From Tateyamaria pelophila (GTDB lineage: Bacteria; Pseudomonadota; Alphaproteobacteria; Rhodobacterales; Rhodobacteraceae): a stretch of DNA of 64,000 bases. The notes under the pieces were generated by a model that worked only from the letters and a program-made list of their open reading frames with translations, did no database searches and had not been told where the DNA came from. A program made the position numbers and the translations under genes. Positions 2,892 to 27,249 of the stretch are shown here, one piece after another; the stretch's first letter is position 1, and the number at the start of each line of letters is the position of its first letter. The stretch covers positions 1 through 64,000 of the forward strand of contig NZ_JAIMIA010000009.1 of assembly GCF_019966495.1 (NCBI RefSeq). Reading direction: 5' to 3'.

Positions 2892-2981
2892 ATGCCTTAG
2901 TACAATTGCCTCCTCTTGCCTCGCCTTTTGGGTTGGCCTATTGTGGCAAGCTTACAAATTGCCCATGGGGATGGACATAAG

Positions 2982-3443
2982 ATGGAATTGCGCAACAGGA
3001 TTTCGGCTGCTCTGAAGCAGGCGATGAAAGACAAGGATGCAGCCCGTTTGTCGACGCTGCGTCTGATCAATGCCGCGATCAAGGACAAGGACATCGATGC
3101 ACGCGCAGCTGGCCAGGACGACGGCGTTGACGAGGGCGAAGTGCTTGGGATCCTTGGAAAAATGTCAAAACAGCGCAGCGAGAGTGCGCGAACCTATGAA
3201 GAAGGCGGTCGGCTTGACCTTGCTGAACGCGAATTGGCGGAGATCGGTGTGATCGAAGAGTTTCTGCCCAAACAACTGGATGAAGCAGCCTCTGCGAAAG
3301 CCGTCGACACCGCAATTGCCGAGGTTGGAGCCGACAATATCCGGGATATGGGCAAGGTGATGGGCGTGCTGAAGGCAAAGTATACCGGCCAGATGGACTT
3401 CGGCAGTGTGGGTCCGATGGTCAAGGACCGGCTTTGCTCCTGA
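2982..3443 (+). CDS. GatB/YqeY domain-containing protein
   Basis: A 153-residue protein of the YqeY family, which resembles the C-terminal tRNA-binding tail domain of the GatB amidotransferase subunit. The exact cellular role of stand-alone YqeY proteins is not settled, though a link to tRNA-dependent amidation is often proposed. Sequence signs are the opening MELRNRISAALKQAMK, the segment RLSTLRLINAAIKDKDI, a helical middle (ILGKMSKQRSESARTYEEGG) and the C-terminal GKVMGVLKAKYTGQMDFG. The start at 2982 is chosen because the family begins at this MELR; an upstream in-frame ATG at 2916 would add an unrelated 22-residue tail. Position next to and divergent from carA is common in this bacterial group. 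Confidence 0.92.
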   Translation: MELRNRISAALKQAMKDKDAARLSTLRLINAAIKDKDIDARAAGQDDGVDEGEVLGILGKMSKQRSESARTYEEGGRLDLAERELAEIGVIEEFLPKQLDEAASAKAVDTAIAEVGADNIRDMGKVMGVLKAKYTGQMDFGSVGPMVKDRLCS

Positions 3444-3809
3444 GGTCAACGCCTCAGTGCGGCGCGAGGAGGCGCTTCCGTGCAGTATTTGACGACATGA
3501 CACGCCCTTACGACATGATACGCCCTGACCATTGACCGGTCCGTAACCTATCAGACCTGTTTTGTATCGGTGACAACCAGTTCTGTTTCAGGATGTGTTG
3601 GAAATGGCGGACGATGCGTCCGCCTTACGGGCACGCCGGGAGGTCGCGGCCGTCAGAGCAGCCTTGCGCGACTCTTGTGGCTGATCGGCTTGCCAGTGGC
3701 ATGCCGCTACCGCGAGGCTTTTCAATCATAACCCGATCTCGTTTCAGCACCGTCCCGTAAGGCGGACCCATGGTCCGCCACACAGGCAGATTTATGTAGT
3801 GTCACAAGA
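3444..3809. other. 366-base convergent intergenic region
   Basis: No coding sequence is supported between the convergent yqeY-type and aminotransferase genes. It holds the paired hairpin repeat at 3606-3779, described separately. The rest shows no other clear structure. Confidence 0.6.
3606..3779. repeat. REP-like inverted hairpin pair, copy 1
   Basis: The left unit is a hairpin at 3606-3624 (GGCGGACG, loop ATG, CGTCCGCC) followed by TTACGGG at 3625-3631. The right unit is the mirror image: CCCGTAA at 3754-3760 and then a hairpin at 3761-3779 (GGCGGACC, loop CAT, GGTCCGCC). Both units have 8-base stems and 3-base loops, and their TTACGGG tails point at each other. The same layout occurs at 24110-24217. 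This matches the general form of REP/BIME elements: short palindromic units in inverted pairs at extragenic positions. Confidence 0.7.
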
Positions 3810-4937
3810 TTACAGCACCCGGTCCACGACACGGCGCAATCGCGCCAACGTACCCGGCACATCGTAGAGCTTGTCGAGACCAAAAAGCCCGATTCGGAAG
3901 GTCCGGAAATCAGCAGGCTCATCGCATTGCAGAGGCACGCCGGCCGCGATTTGCATCCCTTCTGCCGCAAACCGTTTGCCCGTTTGAACCTCGGGATCTG
4001 CGGTATAGCAGACGACTACCCCTGGCGCGCCAAAACCTTCCGCTGCGACCGATGTGATGCCCTTCTCCGCAAACATTTGCCGAACCGCGTCGCCCAATGC
4101 CCATTGCGCTTCTTTCAACCGGGCAAACCCATATTCTTTCGTCTCGATCATCGTATCGCGGAAATCGCGCAGCGCGTCGGTCGGCATGGTTGCGTGATAG
4201 GCATGGCCGCCATTCTCGTAGGCCATCATGATCTGATGCCACTTCTTGAGATCAGCGGCAAAGCTGTCGGAAGTCGTTTCCTCCATCCGGGCCACGGCGC
4301 GATCGGACAGCATGACAAGACCGGCACAGGGTGACGCACTCCACCCCTTTTGAGGCGCAGAAATCAACACATCGACACCCAGACCCCGCATATCCACCCA
4401 AGCGCAGCCCGAAGCGATACAATCCAGCACCACCAACGCGCCGACATCATGTGCCGCCGCCGCCATGCTCGCAATGTAATCATCGGGCAGGATCACACCT
4501 GCACTGGTTTCCACATGCGGGGCAAAGACGATGTCTGGTTTGTTCGTCCGGATCGCCTCGACAACTTCTTCGATCGGCGCGGGCGCAAAGGGCGACGGGG
4601 CGGAATTCCCGGTTTGACGCGCCTTCAGAACTGTTGTGCTGGCGGTAAAATCACCCAATTCGAAAATCTGACTCCAGCGATAGCTGAACCACCCATTGCG
4701 CACGACCAGCACATTGGCGCCGCGCCCGAACTGGCGCGCAACGGCCTCCATGCCAAAGGTGCCGCCCCCCGGTACAATAACCACTGCATCGGCAGCATAA
4801 ACTTCCTTGAGCATGGATGAGATGTCATTCATCACGCCCTGAAACACGCCGCTCATATGGTTGAGAGAGCGGTCCGTGAAAACAACGGAGAATTCCTCGA
4901 GCCCTTGCGGGTCAACAGTATCAAGCAGTGCGGGCAT
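3810..4937 (-). CDS. class V aminotransferase (alanine/serine-glyoxylate type)
   Basis: A PLP-dependent enzyme of fold type I, aminotransferase class V, 375 residues. Relatives include alanine-glyoxylate and serine-glyoxylate aminotransferases. Visible features are the glycine-rich cofactor loop VIVPGGGTFGMEAVARQF, the segment APHVETSAGVILP, the aspartate region VVLDCIASG that contacts the PLP ring, and the Schiff-base lysine in SAPQKGWSASPCAG. The exact amino donor and acceptor cannot be told from the sequence. The start at 4937 is chosen for its RBS (GGAG about 8 bases upstream) and because it begins at the conserved region; an upstream ATG at 5009 would add 24 unrelated residues. It is convergent with the yqeY-type gene and divergent from the Hint-domain gene. 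Confidence 0.88.
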   Translation of the reverse strand: MPALLDTVDPQGLEEFSVVFTDRSLNHMSGVFQGVMNDISSMLKEVYAADAVVIVPGGGTFGMEAVARQFGRGANVLVVRNGWFSYRWSQIFELGDFTASTTVLKARQTGNSAPSPFAPAPIEEVVEAIRTNKPDIVFAPHVETSAGVILPDDYIASMAAAAHDVGALVVLDCIASGCAWVDMRGLGVDVLISAPQKGWSASPCAGLVMLSDRAVARMEETTSDSFAADLKKWHQIMMAYENGGHAYHATMPTDALRDFRDTMIETKEYGFARLKEAQWALGDAVRQMFAEKGITSVAAEGFGAPGVVVCYTADPEVQTGKRFAAEGMQIAAGVPLQCDEPADFRTFRIGLFGLDKLYDVPGTLARLRRVVDRVL

Positions 4938-5152
4938 GGTTTTTTCTCCAACGTTTCCACCCTGTTTAGGGGGATGCATCGCAAACGGCAAATATGCCTT
5001 TGCATACAAGCGCGGATTGCGCCGGGCAACCCTGTTCGGAGTGCGTTGAAATTTTCATTAAAAACTGTTTTCCGAGATGTTTCAACTCGAAGCAGACTGC
5101 ATTATGTCGAACGCAAACCTGCAACACCGCATATTCTGAACAGGAGTTTCCG

Positions 5153-22708: not shown

Positions 22709-23989
22709 TCACTCTTTCTCTTTGAGAGCCAGTTCATTCTCGGCGATGTAATTCCGGTTGCGCGGCCCTTCGGAGTTGCGCTTGGTGAACTGGATCTGGA
22801 AATTGCACAGCCGCCCGTGGCGATAGTGGATTTCGGAAGATGTCAGATAGATGTTCCACATCCGGTAGAACGTCTCGTCGTAGAATTCGAGCACCTTGTC
22901 CTTGTTGGCTCGGAACCGTTCGCGCCATTCAAGGATCGTATCCGCATAGTGATAGGTCAGGATTTCGATATCCTTGACCATCAACGGCACCTTTTCGACG
23001 GCCTCCAGGGTTTCGGCCAGTGACGGGATCTGCCCCTGTGGAAAGATATATTTTTCGATGAAGGGCGCATTGTAGCGGTTTGGTTTGACCCGCACGATCG
23101 AGTGCAGCAGGAAGATGCCATCCGGGGCCATCAGCTTTTTGACGGTGCGGAAAAACTCTTCGTAGTGGCGCAGGCCGACATGTTCGAACATGCCCACGGA
23201 GACGACGCGGTCAAACTCGCCGGTGACTTTGCGATAGTCCATCAGCTTGAATTCCACCCGGTCGGAGAGGCCCGCGGCGGCGGCACGTTCATTGGCCACG
23301 CGCACCTGCTCTTCGGACAGGCTGACGCCGGTGACGTGGGCCCCCGTCGTCTTGGCAAGGTAAAGGCCCATGCCGCCCCAGCCGCAACCGATGTCGAGCA
23401 CGCGCATGCCTTCCTTGAGGCGCATCTTGGCCGCGAGGTGACGTTTTTTCTTGAGCTGCGCCTCTTCCAGCGTCTCATCGCCGTTTTCGAAATAGGCGCA
23501 GGAATATTGCATGTCCTCGTCGAGAAAGAGCCGAAAGAGCTTTTCGTCGAGGTCATAGTGATGCGCCACATTGCGCTGTGCGGCATCCGGCAGGATGCTG
23601 CGTTTTAGTCTGCGGTCCAGAATACGCTTGGCCGTACGCGCAGCCGCAGGTGGCGTGACAAAATTCTTTTTGCTGCGATTGAGCTTGGAGATCATCAAAA
23701 GGTCGTAAATATCACCTTCCTCGATCACCAGCTTGCCATGCATGTACAGTTCCGGGAATTGCAATTCCGGATCCGAATACAGTTTTCTCATGGCATCATC
23801 GTCGACGAATCGGATGCGCAGAGGCGCACGCGTTCCATCGCCGTAGGTCACGACTTTGCCCGACGGATAGGCGACTTCCAGATTTCCGGTTTGCACCGTG
23901 CGGTCAAATATCTTGGAGAGCTTGTCTTCCATCATCCCTGGGAATTCCTTTTGTCGGATCAATGTCGCCAACTTACTCCACTCGATCAC
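22709..23989 (-). CDS. cfa: cyclopropane-fatty-acyl-phospholipid synthase
   Basis: Adds a methylene group from S-adenosylmethionine to cis double bonds of membrane phospholipid acyl chains. It has 426 residues. The N-terminal lipid-binding part contains FPELYMHGKLVIEEGDIYDL. The methyltransferase domain starts near residue 140 (NVAHHYDLDEKLFRLFLDED, YSCAYF) with the SAM loop VLDIGCGWGGMGLYLAK and the active-site segment SVGMFEHVG. The C-terminal segment IFPQGQIPSLAETLEAV is also typical. Related methyltransferases that make methylated lipids cannot be fully excluded. It stands alone on its strand, upstream of a REP-like element. Confidence 0.93.
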   Translation of the reverse strand: MIEWSKLATLIRQKEFPGMMEDKLSKIFDRTVQTGNLEVAYPSGKVVTYGDGTRAPLRIRFVDDDAMRKLYSDPELQFPELYMHGKLVIEEGDIYDLLMISKLNRSKKNFVTPPAAARTAKRILDRRLKRSILPDAAQRNVAHHYDLDEKLFRLFLDEDMQYSCAYFENGDETLEEAQLKKKRHLAAKMRLKEGMRVLDIGCGWGGMGLYLAKTTGAHVTGVSLSEEQVRVANERAAAAGLSDRVEFKLMDYRKVTGEFDRVVSVGMFEHVGLRHYEEFFRTVKKLMAPDGIFLLHSIVRVKPNRYNAPFIEKYIFPQGQIPSLAETLEAVEKVPLMVKDIEILTYHYADTILEWRERFRANKDKVLEFYDETFYRMWNIYLTSSEIHYRHGRLCNFQIQFTKRNSEGPRNRNYIAENELALKEKE

Positions 23990-24109: not shown

Positions 24110-24217
24110 GGCGCACCATGGGTGCGCCTTACGGGCCTCCTGATTCCGCATGTGCTCGAATTGATCTGCTCGGACGCCCTTTGCAACCTCGCCCGTAAGG
24201 CGGTCGCTTCGCCCGCC
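24110..24217. repeat. REP-like inverted hairpin pair, copy 2
   Basis: The left unit is a hairpin at 24110-24128 (GGCGCACC, loop ATG, GGTGCGCC) followed by TTACGGG (24129-24135). The right unit is CCCGTAA (24192-24198) followed by a hairpin at 24199-24217 (GGCGGTCG, loop CTT, CGCCCGCC; one mismatch). The layout is the same as at 3606-3779 with a shorter spacer. The right hairpin ends directly at the stop codon of the ThDP enzyme gene, so it may also act in termination. Confidence 0.7.
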
Positions 24218-25801
24218 TCACCGGCTGATGTCGGGCGTAACGTAGATGAGCGTCGGACCGTCGGCGTCAAACGCCGTCCTGACTGCCGCCTGCATGTCAT
24301 GCAAGGATTGCGGGGCCGCAGACTGCGCCCCGAATGCTTCGGCCAGTTTGCAAAAATCCGGGTTGTGCGCGATCACGGCATTCGGCGCGATCTGCGCACG
24401 GACCATACTGTCCTCGATCTCTCCAAGTTTGCCGTTGTCCCACAACAGGATCGGGAGCGGCAGACCAAGCTCCACCGCGACGCCGAGTTCCTGCATCGTG
24501 TAATGGAATCCATAATCACCAATGATCGCCATCGTCGGCAGACCCTTGCGCGCCACGCCCCCCCCAATGGCCGCCGGTATGGCGTAGCCAAGCGTGCCGA
24601 ACCCATAAGGATGGTGCCAGTGACCGGGTTGGTCCATATCCCAGACTTCTTTCGCGGCGTAGGCCAACTGGGTCATATCCGAATAGATCATGGTGCCGTC
24701 CGGCAGACACGCGCGCAACGCGTCGCAGACAGGCACGATGCCGGTCCGTTCCGCGTCGATCTCGGACCGCCAGCGGGCCCGCCGCGCGGCAACGGCCGCC
24801 GGATCCCACACCGTCTGCGCTCCGTTGATCTTTGCCGTCACCGCTTCAAAAAATCGCGCTGCATCACACTGAATGCGCAGATGCGCATCGCTGGAGTTGG
24901 ACAGGACTTCCGTATCAATATCGACGCGAATGAGCGGGGCCGTGTGCCCCAACCTGTCCCGCCACAGATCGACTTGTGCCAGTTCCGTGCCAACGGCGAT
25001 CACCAGATCCGCCTCGGCCAGTACATTTGCACTGTCGGGCCGCGCCAGCGTGCTGCCAAACAACAAGCCGTAGGACGGCGCCACAACCCCCCGACCTGCG
25101 TAGCTGGTAAACACCGCTGCCGGGCACTTTCCCAGAAACGCGCGGACCTGATCACTGGCCTGTGTCGTCCCCCCGCCAAGGACGAGAAGAGGACGCTTTG
25201 ACGTCGCCAGAAGTGCCGCGACCTCACGCATCTGTGCCTCTGGAGCGGCGCTGTTTCCTGCGATCAGACCACCGGCGACAAAGGGTGGCGCGGCGGCTTC
25301 CAGCTGCGCGATCGGGACCTGAATGTGCTTGGGGCGGGGGCGATCCGTGTCCATCTCGCGCAAAGCGCGATCGACCAGCGCATAGGCGGCCTCTGCCGTG
25401 CGCGCCTCTTCGGACCAGTCGCAGACGGTCGCAGCTGCCGCGCGCTGGTCTTTCATCTGGTGCAATTGTCCGCGTTTTGCCGCCGTTTCATCCAGGCAAG
25501 AGGATATCACCAGCATCGGCACGGAATCGGAATAGGCCTGGCCCATCGGCGTCATGATGTTGCACAGCCCCGGTCCCGTGATCACATAGGCCACACCCGG
25601 CCTGCCCGACGCGCGGGCATAACCGTCCGCCATGAAGCCCGCACCCTGTTCGTGCCGGGCCAGCACATGGGTGATCCCGGCCTCTTCGATACCGCGGTAC
25701 ATTTCCTGATTGTGCACGCCTGGAATGCCAAAAATGACGTCGACGCCGCGATCCTTCAGCATATGGGAAATTTGCGCACCGAGGGGGCGGGTGTGGGGCA
25801 T
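24218..25801 (-). CDS. ThDP-dependent decarboxylase (5-guanidino-2-oxopentanoate decarboxylase-like)
   Basis: A thiamine diphosphate enzyme of the acetolactate synthase superfamily, 527 residues. The N-terminal PYR domain has VIFGIPGVHNQEMYRGIEEA and the catalytic glutamate in RHEQGAGFMADGYARASG. The central domain contains RPLLVLGGGTTQA. The C-terminal PP domain holds the cofactor motif starting GDYGFHYTMQEL and ending WDNGKLGEI. The GIPGVHxxE(M/L)YRG pattern is what I know from AruI-type 5-guanidino-2-oxopentanoate decarboxylases of arginine breakdown, but no other arginine-transaminase-pathway gene is nearby, so the substrate is uncertain. Its start overlaps the trkH stop by one base (TAATG), indicating coupling. 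Confidence 0.82.
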   Translation of the reverse strand: MPHTRPLGAQISHMLKDRGVDVIFGIPGVHNQEMYRGIEEAGITHVLARHEQGAGFMADGYARASGRPGVAYVITGPGLCNIMTPMGQAYSDSVPMLVISSCLDETAAKRGQLHQMKDQRAAAATVCDWSEEARTAEAAYALVDRALREMDTDRPRPKHIQVPIAQLEAAAPPFVAGGLIAGNSAAPEAQMREVAALLATSKRPLLVLGGGTTQASDQVRAFLGKCPAAVFTSYAGRGVVAPSYGLLFGSTLARPDSANVLAEADLVIAVGTELAQVDLWRDRLGHTAPLIRVDIDTEVLSNSSDAHLRIQCDAARFFEAVTAKINGAQTVWDPAAVAARRARWRSEIDAERTGIVPVCDALRACLPDGTMIYSDMTQLAYAAKEVWDMDQPGHWHHPYGFGTLGYAIPAAIGGGVARKGLPTMAIIGDYGFHYTMQELGVAVELGLPLPILLWDNGKLGEIEDSMVRAQIAPNAVIAHNPDFCKLAEAFGAQSAAPQSLHDMQAAVRTAFDADGPTLIYVTPDISR

Positions 25802-27249
25802 TACGCTCTCCAGAATTGAACTGTGAAAATGACATAGACAACCATCAGTTCCAGCCGTCCGATCAGCATTGCAGCGGCCAGCAGCCATTTGGCGGTGTCA
25901 TTGATACTGGCAAAATTGCCTGCGGGGCCGATCTGATCGCCAAAGCCGGGGCCGATATTGCCCAGCGCCGTGGCCGCGCCGGACACCGACGTGATGAAAT
26001 CAAGACCCGTCATGGCCAGGCCGACGGACAAGAGCCCCAGCGTGACCGTGAAGAACACGAAGAACGACATGACAGAGCTCAGTACATCATCACTGACGGG
26101 CCGACCGGCATAGCGGGGCGTAAAGATGCCGTGCGGGCTGCGGGTTTTTTGCAGCTGGGACCGGATCGATGCAAAGAGGAGCTGATAGCGGAACACCTTG
26201 ATCGAGCAGGCGGTCGAGCCCGCGCACCCGCCGATCAGCCCGGTAAAGAACAGAACGGCGATCGCAAAACTGCCCCATTGCATGTAATCTGCGCTGGCAT
26301 ATCCCGTGCCCGTCATCAGCGACACGGCGTTGAACAAGGCGACCCGTACCGCCGCTTCGTCGATCACGCGTTGCTTTGACAGGTTCCAGCCCGCGATCAG
26401 CAACACGATGATCAGAGCGGTGATCAGAAAGGCGTGTATCTGTGTGTCCTGAAGCAGCGGACGGGCGGTACCAGCGCTCAGTTGAACGAAACGCACAAAG
26501 GGCAGAGCGGCCAACAGCATGAACAGCGTGGCCACATAGGACGCCGCCGGGCCAAACGCCGCAAAGGACGCGTCATAATTCGCAAATCCACCCGTTGCGA
26601 TGGTTGTCATCGCGTGGACCGTGGCATCGAACGCGTTCATCCCGGCGGCCACGTAAGACAGCGCGCAAATCATCGTCAGCGATACGTAGATCACGGAAAT
26701 CCGACTGGCGATTTCGGTCGCGCGCGGCAGGATCTTGCCAAAGGTGTCAAAGGATTCGGTCCGAAATATCTGCATCCCGCCGACGCGCAACTCGGGCAGG
26801 AACACCATCGCCACAACGATGATCCCGATCCCGCCCAGCCATTGCAGAATGCCGCGCCAGAGCAACAGCCCCTTGGGCATCGTATCCAGCCCGGAGAAAA
26901 CGGTGGACCCGGTGGTGGTCAGCCCCGACATCGCCTCGAAGAACGCGTCTACGAAGCGGGCCTCTGTTGCGCCGAGCATGAAGGGCAGCGCACCGAAGAC
27001 CGGCAGTGCCAGCCAAACCCCGGTTGTCAGCAGAAAGGTTTGCTGGATCGTCAACCCTTCGCGCACGCCGTTGGCGCAGCTCAGCGCGATCAAACCGCCG
27101 GTCAGGATTGTAATAACCGCGCTTTCGGCAAAGACAGGCCAGTGTTCCCGGCCCTCGGCCAAGTCGATCAGCATCGGCAAAACCATGGTTGCACCAAGCA
27201 CCGCAACCAAGAGGCCAATCACATATCCGACGGGGCGCAAATCCAACAT
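25801..27249 (-). CDS. trkH: TrkH-family potassium transporter subunit
   Basis: Membrane subunit of a Trk/Ktr-type potassium uptake system, 482 residues with about ten or more helices. The four pore-loop repeats can be seen: SGLTTTGSTVFSGLD, TTIATGGFANYDASF, GGCAGSTACSIKVFRYQL and ATALGNIGPGFGDQIGP, each with the filter glycine. Such proteins work with a cytoplasmic TrkA-type regulator, which is not in this window. The start at 27249 (MLDLRPVGYVIGLL) is preferred over an ATG 12 codons earlier because the conserved protein begins there; the RBS is weak at both. It is translationally coupled to the ThDP enzyme, an unexpected partner. Confidence 0.9.
   Translation of the reverse strand: MLDLRPVGYVIGLLVAVLGATMVLPMLIDLAEGREHWPVFAESAVITILTGGLIALSCANGVREGLTIQQTFLLTTGVWLALPVFGALPFMLGATEARFVDAFFEAMSGLTTTGSTVFSGLDTMPKGLLLWRGILQWLGGIGIIVVAMVFLPELRVGGMQIFRTESFDTFGKILPRATEIASRISVIYVSLTMICALSYVAAGMNAFDATVHAMTTIATGGFANYDASFAAFGPAASYVATLFMLLAALPFVRFVQLSAGTARPLLQDTQIHAFLITALIIVLLIAGWNLSKQRVIDEAAVRVALFNAVSLMTGTGYASADYMQWGSFAIAVLFFTGLIGGCAGSTACSIKVFRYQLLFASIRSQLQKTRSPHGIFTPRYAGRPVSDDVLSSVMSFFVFFTVTLGLLSVGLAMTGLDFITSVSGAATALGNIGPGFGDQIGPAGNFASINDTAKWLLAAAMLIGRLELMVVYVIFTVQFWRA

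Follow-up and report, generated by a model that had tools for sequence, protein, structure and literature searches.

The two hairpin pairs examined here are members of a REP/BIME family that extends over the whole genome and has the guide tetranucleotide GTAA; its partner is a RAYT (TnpAREP) descendant in which the residues for DNA cutting have been replaced. The pairs lie in the window, a stretch of 64,000 nucleotides of the marine bacterium Tateyamaria pelophila (positions 1 to 64,000 of contig NZ_JAIMIA010000009.1). We lean, at somewhat better than even confidence, towards a domesticated RAYT that would bind REPs without cutting them and to the advantage of the cell, with the GTAA REPs as its co-evolving sites.

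The GTAA hairpin family

Read 5' to 3', the unit consists of CCC, GTAA, an 8-nt arm, a 3-nt loop and a second 8-nt arm. The first-pass annotation had described paired, inward-facing 8+3+8 hairpins with TTACGGG at two sites, and the coordinates of both copies confirm this layout (Table 1). It had also taken the stem bases to pair, which is fully true of three of the four units; the right hairpin of copy 2 has one mismatch. The tail, not known to that annotation from described families, is the guide on the opposite strand (CCCGTAA), with GTAA instead of the canonical GT[AG]G (given as the REP guide in the accessible text of PMC6006769).

Table 1. Positions of the REP units and pairs in the window and of the RAYT gene
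Feature	Position	Strand	Description
REP copy 1, left unit	3606..3631	-	CCC + guide GTAA + 8-3-8 hairpin; hairpin 3606-3624, then TTACGGG 3625-3631; stem GGCGGACG, loop CAT (- strand)
REP copy 1, right unit	3754..3779	+	CCCGTAA 3754-3760, then hairpin 3761-3779; stem GGCGGACC, loop CAT
Inverted REP pair 1 (BIME/REPIN-like)	3606..3779	.	between convergent genes
REP copy 2, left unit	24110..24135	-	hairpin 24110-24128, then TTACGGG to 24135; stem GGCGCACC, loop CAT
REP copy 2, right unit	24192..24217	+	CCCGTAA 24192-24198, then hairpin 24199-24217; stem GGCGGTCG/CGCCCGCC, one T.C mismatch; loop CTT
Inverted REP pair 2	24110..24217	.	between TPP-enzyme and cyclopropane-synthase-like genes
RAYT (TnpAREP) descendant	C66:4356-4925		NF047646 match at C66:4365-4799

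Pair 1 is bordered by a yqeY-like gene (2916-3443, + strand) and a class V aminotransferase gene (3810-5009, - strand). Pair 2 lies between the cyclopropane-synthase-like gene (22709-23989, - strand) and the TPP-enzyme gene (24218-25888, - strand), and abuts the stop codon of the latter. The word CCCGTAAGG occurs four times in the window, where shuffles give 0.13. When pair 1 is folded as single-stranded DNA, its left and right units base-pair with one another (-50.6 kcal/mol, z -4.2), as the units of REPINs do. For pair 2, the fold as RNA does not exceed that of shuffles (z -1.15). Another REP of the family is located just beyond the end of the window, at G000:C280:64498-64520.

The genome of the window (G000; 5.65 Mb, 280 contigs) contains 75 copies of CCCGTAAGGCG, 38 on one strand and 37 on the other, versus 5 of the reversed control pattern, and 114 matches to GTAAGGCGN{8,12}CGCC versus 17 of its reversal. 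These 75 core copies, far more than a few, were picked without regard to the hairpin, the search word fixing only the 5' side of stem pairs 1-4. A perfect 8-bp stem is found in 64 of them and a stem with one mismatch in eight, where swapping of the 3' arms predicts 13.4 and 9.8, respectively; in total, 72 of the 75 form the stem. Stem pairs 5-8 occur as several pair types across the family, so the compensatory change first suspected from the window is real. Among 23 neighboring copies at most 300 bp apart, the tails face each other in 20, are turned the opposite way in 3 and point in the same direction in 0, so that all 23 are inverted and the claimed pairing is the rule.

A looser detector found 94 copies in 579 kb taken around the core copies. 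Of these, 82 lie outside the genes called by a simple hexamer gene finder and 12 were counted in genes (coding fraction 88.3%), so the copies are mostly intergenic, in line with the expectation of the first-pass annotation; because the sample was chosen around REPs, only this contrast between coding and non-coding DNA within the 579 kb is meaningful. Apart from one copy at an edge, the intergenic copies (n = 81) are placed 39 in tandem, 37 in convergent and 5 in divergent gaps, while base counts predict 17% convergent and 25% divergent. The family is therefore a many-copy short palindrome with an extragenic bias and inverted pairs, and since its guide is GTAA and not GT[AG]G, we file it as a GTAA variant of REP/BIME elements.

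The excess of copies at convergent and tandem gene ends would also arise if the hairpins were kept only as the 3' ends of transcripts, as terminators or mRNA stabilizers, independently of any RAYT. We consider this very unlikely, because the inverted-pair layout (20 of 23) is not required by such a role, GTAA is conserved although it lies outside the stem, and the counts per genome follow the RAYT, as described below. In addition, copy 1 has no T-run terminators, scans of it for terminators and promoters were empty, and an Rfam scan of the window gave no match.

The RAYT gene and its relatives

A search of the genome with the NF047646 profile gave a single RAYT match over the cut-off (148 bits; cut-off 80). 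The first-pass annotation had proposed to look for a RAYT gene with this unit at its flanks; one such gene exists, in the arrangement of a REPtron but with REPs on its 3' side only. One REP (C66:4882-4904, - strand) overlaps the 3' end of the reading frame and the other, inverted relative to it (5114-5136, + strand), lies about 190 bp downstream, and no REP was found within 500 bp upstream. Pfam Y1_Tnp (PF01797) did not match this gene and returned only two IS200-like TnpA genes (G000:C153:1463-1810 and C155:58628-58927), which were ruled out as the mobilizer of the REPs because CCCGTAAGG is absent from their loci. The C-terminal residues of the RAYT (R-T-T-R-A-P-Y type) are encoded in frame by a REP unit (L068:4882-4925 and the orthologues L086-L098), as in most members of the genus.

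In the alignment to E. coli TnpAREP (PDB 4er8), the two HUH histidines correspond to V59 and Y61, and the catalytic Y115 to M128. The residues that contact the guide in E. coli, reported as W94, Q95, E100, H101 and R104 in the accessible text of PMC6006769, align to W107, Q108, E113, H114 and R117, which are invariant in 8/8 aligned clade members. The top match of the fold predicted for the sister-species protein is 4er8 (TM 0.84 by target). By sequence family and by fold, the latter taken from the prediction for the sister protein, the gene product is a RAYT/TnpAREP by descent; the HUH histidines and catalytic Tyr of an active transposase are V, Y and M in it.

Relatives were sought in 61 genomes, and 24 had one. 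In 17 proteins from Tateyamaria (L084-L099, L101), His1 is replaced by V or T and Tyr by M or L, and two of them, our own and that of G009, have lost His2 as well. Three of the 17 are identical to proteins in named Tateyamaria records (L114-L116), on which the assignment to this genus is based. The comparison covered 110 rows, of which 77 have retained H, H and Y and 30 (27 distinct) are without His1 and Tyr; the remaining three are two fragments and one protein with W for Tyr. The tree left out the fragment or near-fragment rows L110, L147 and L187 and the duplicates L114-L116. In it the 27 disarmed proteins and L140 of Flavimaricola, which has H, H and Y, form one group (support 100/99), and L102 is a long branch. 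The disarmed label needs two changes on this tree, and the disarmed state may have a single origin.

The locus is conserved as well. A C26-peptidase gene is a neighbor at 17/17 Tateyamaria loci and an SDR gene at 15/17. Outside the genus, both are found in Roseobacter L119, L122 and L126 and the C26 gene at L127, and they are absent from all 13 other RAYT-relative loci of the 61-genome search. The six closest pairs have dN/dS ratios of 0.09-0.14, and the median over 56 pairs with dS<1.5 is 0.18. The shared synteny and the low dN/dS argue for vertical inheritance under selection and not for a decaying transposase. As far as sequences tell, the loss of the cutting residues seems to be ancient, and yet the protein has been conserved together with the hairpins.

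Flavimaricola (L140, G070) has an apparently intact RAYT and double-footed GTAA...TTAC hairpins, and is thus a ready-made active reference for the GTAA guide. Since L140 lies inside the clade and combines GTAA REPs with an intact HUH/Tyr set, the GTAA guide is not caused by the disarming.

REP abundance and sister species

Of the 20 genus members, 14 have 30-129 GTAA hairpins each, and all of these carry the gene; the other six have only 3-11. These six are G013 and G016, with a canonical RAYT only, G019, with none over the cut-off, and G006, G015 and G018, which have the gene in a diverged, shortened or locally REP-less state. Each of 41 genomes outside the genus has at most 11. The REP-rich G000, G010, G012, G014 and G017 have no other RAYT over the cut-off, and the canonical RAYTs in this sample are flanked mostly by GTAG hairpins. 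Hairpins of the GTAA-GATGGGT pattern number 74 and 60 in the disarmed-RAYT genomes of L120 and L125 (reversed controls 0). Flavimaricola gave 182 strand hits (reversed control 0), many of them from a double-footed unit that is counted once per strand, and the other seven genomes checked gave 0-16. High counts are associated with presence of the gene at Fisher p 0.018 with kinship ignored, a weak association. Thus the abundance of GTAA REPs weakly tracks the disarmed RAYT and not the canonical ones.

Our genome was compared with 1.2 Mb of the sister species G014, where both flanks could be aligned for 23 of our 70 REP clusters. For twelve REPs of these clusters, G014 has a GTAA REP at the corresponding position on the same strand, so most copies do not look recently moved. 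The first-pass annotation took the hairpins to be moved by RAYT transposases. Past movement is likely; for the present, the claim is not supported, given these 12 shared places and the loss of both HUH histidines and the catalytic Tyr from the sole RAYT over the cut-off. At L036:5004, L037:1030 and L072:5007 a GTAA hairpin here is opposite a GTAG-type hairpin in G014, so guides seem to change in place. A pair at about L055:4957-5025 and one unit of L037 are cleanly absent from the sister, and the REPs are therefore not wholly fixed. A comparison of G004 and G012 over 400 kb around the RAYT, with few sites, gave about one shared intergenic cluster, one only in G004 and one only in G012; a G012-only hit lies inside a gene and is chance-like.

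The two clean differences from the sister species G014 would be expected if the elements were ordinary REPs still moved by this RAYT through an unorthodox active site (a remaining His, another nucleophile), as would the species-specific loop types and copy numbers and the REP-rich genomes with no other RAYT over the cut-off. We nevertheless judge this improbable, because His1 and Tyr are gone in 27/27 distinct proteins of the group and His2 in two, and 12 REPs are in place in the sister too. Moreover, according to the accessible text of PMC8266576, replacing Tyr by Phe in the RAYTs of E. coli and S. maltophilia abolishes their activity in vitro.

The loops differ between the two species. At 9 of the 12 shared sites, judged by eye, the first loop base is C here and T in G014, and genome-wide the C:T ratio at this base in 8-3-8 units is 61:8 here vs 0:25 in G014. 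Other REP-rich members have 0-9 C and 36-90 T, except G010 (0 and 9). The CAT loop occurs in 39 copies here and in at most two in any other member. A simple burst of CAT-loop copies after the split is weakened as an explanation by the orthologous sites common to both species. Nine of the 12 own copies are closer to a paralogue than to the orthologue, which is weak evidence with 93 paralogues to choose from. Orthologous copies are closer to each other (0.158) than to random G014 copies (0.284), which favors evolution in place over wholesale replacement. Either per-site selection or biased conversion could produce the loop switch, and it could reflect gene conversion or the drift of a recent expansion instead of co-evolution.

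Alternatively, the REPs may be relics that spread under a canonical RAYT now lost and are being homogenized by ectopic gene conversion, with the disarmed RAYT kept for an unrelated reason. The sites common to the sister with altered loop and stem are consistent with this, as are the three with a GTAG-type hairpin there (L036, L037 at 1030, L072) and the relatives that retain the protein without REPs. We find it doubtful, though worth some weight, because genomes in which the gene is absent or changed have GTAA REPs only at background level, G013 and G016 with only canonical RAYTs have just 8 and 11, and the stems are still paired in 72/75. Repeats of 23-26 bp are also short for recombination.

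Proposed role and known systems

A domesticated RAYT that only binds REPs fits best, because the guide is altered at base 4, the protein no longer has its cutting residues but shows no variation in those for guide contact, and the loop base has shifted in concert throughout the genome. The RAYT descendant retains its fold and the residues for guide contact but has lost the metal-binding histidines and the nucleophilic tyrosine, and it would no longer cut or move REPs. It may bind the folded single-stranded hairpins, either in lagging-strand DNA or as the same hairpin at mRNA 3' ends. The REPs would persist because they are its sites, for the most part at constant positions next to gene ends and with some benefit to the cell; their stems would change by compensation and the loop base would follow the specificity of the protein. 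In S. maltophilia, the accessible text of PMC8266576 names the first loop base as the loop determinant of RAYT recognition. It also describes single guide mutations that keep binding while reducing or abolishing cutting, most at the third and fourth positions, and a Tyr mutant that does not cut. Tentatively, at slightly less than an even chance, we propose further that this catalysis-free Roseobacteraceae RAYT lineage is a sequence-specific hairpin binder with about 100 individually maintained REP sites, and that in a single species lineage the loop base has been rewritten genome-wide to match the protein.

The system resembles the GTAG REP/BIME (REPIN) elements with their RAYT (REPtrons; E. 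coli, S. maltophilia REPSm) in the guide and hairpin, the inverted intergenic pairs, the bias to gene ends and the single-copy RAYT flanked by cognate REPs. REPSm also has an 8-bp stem and a 3-nt loop, according to the accessible text of PMC8266576. It differs in the guide, GTAA instead of GT[AG]G, and in a partner without HUH and Tyr. The protein shares with TnpAREP/RAYT (NF047646; E. coli TnpAREP, PDB 4er8) a family score over the cut-off, the fold and the guide-contact residues, but its catalytic residues are replaced, its C-terminus is coded by a REP copy and it has no Pfam Y1_Tnp match. Like the domesticated RAYTs of Bertels and colleagues (PMC8049555), it is single-copy and vertically inherited. 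Those are held, in the accessible text, to replicate REPINs actively, if slowly, whereas the present one should be unable to do so. Literature searches, with most subscription papers and bioRxiv outside their coverage, returned no GTAA REP and no RAYT lacking HUH and Tyr that is accompanied by REPs. Such disarmed proteins are discarded in surveys: one retained 722 of 924 sequences and excluded proteins lacking the HuH and Y motifs, which it regarded as probably non-functional (PMC6006769, accessible text). Models of the long persistence of REPs with a single-copy RAYT assume that the RAYT copies REPs. Because a lineage without the cutting residues separates binding from transposition, the benefit of REP-RAYT pairs becomes testable without transposition.

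Roseobacter L119, L122 and L126 have the disarmed RAYT at this locus too, in inverted orientation and with no hairpins nearby. Since these bacteria keep the protein without adjacent REPs, its function may not need them.
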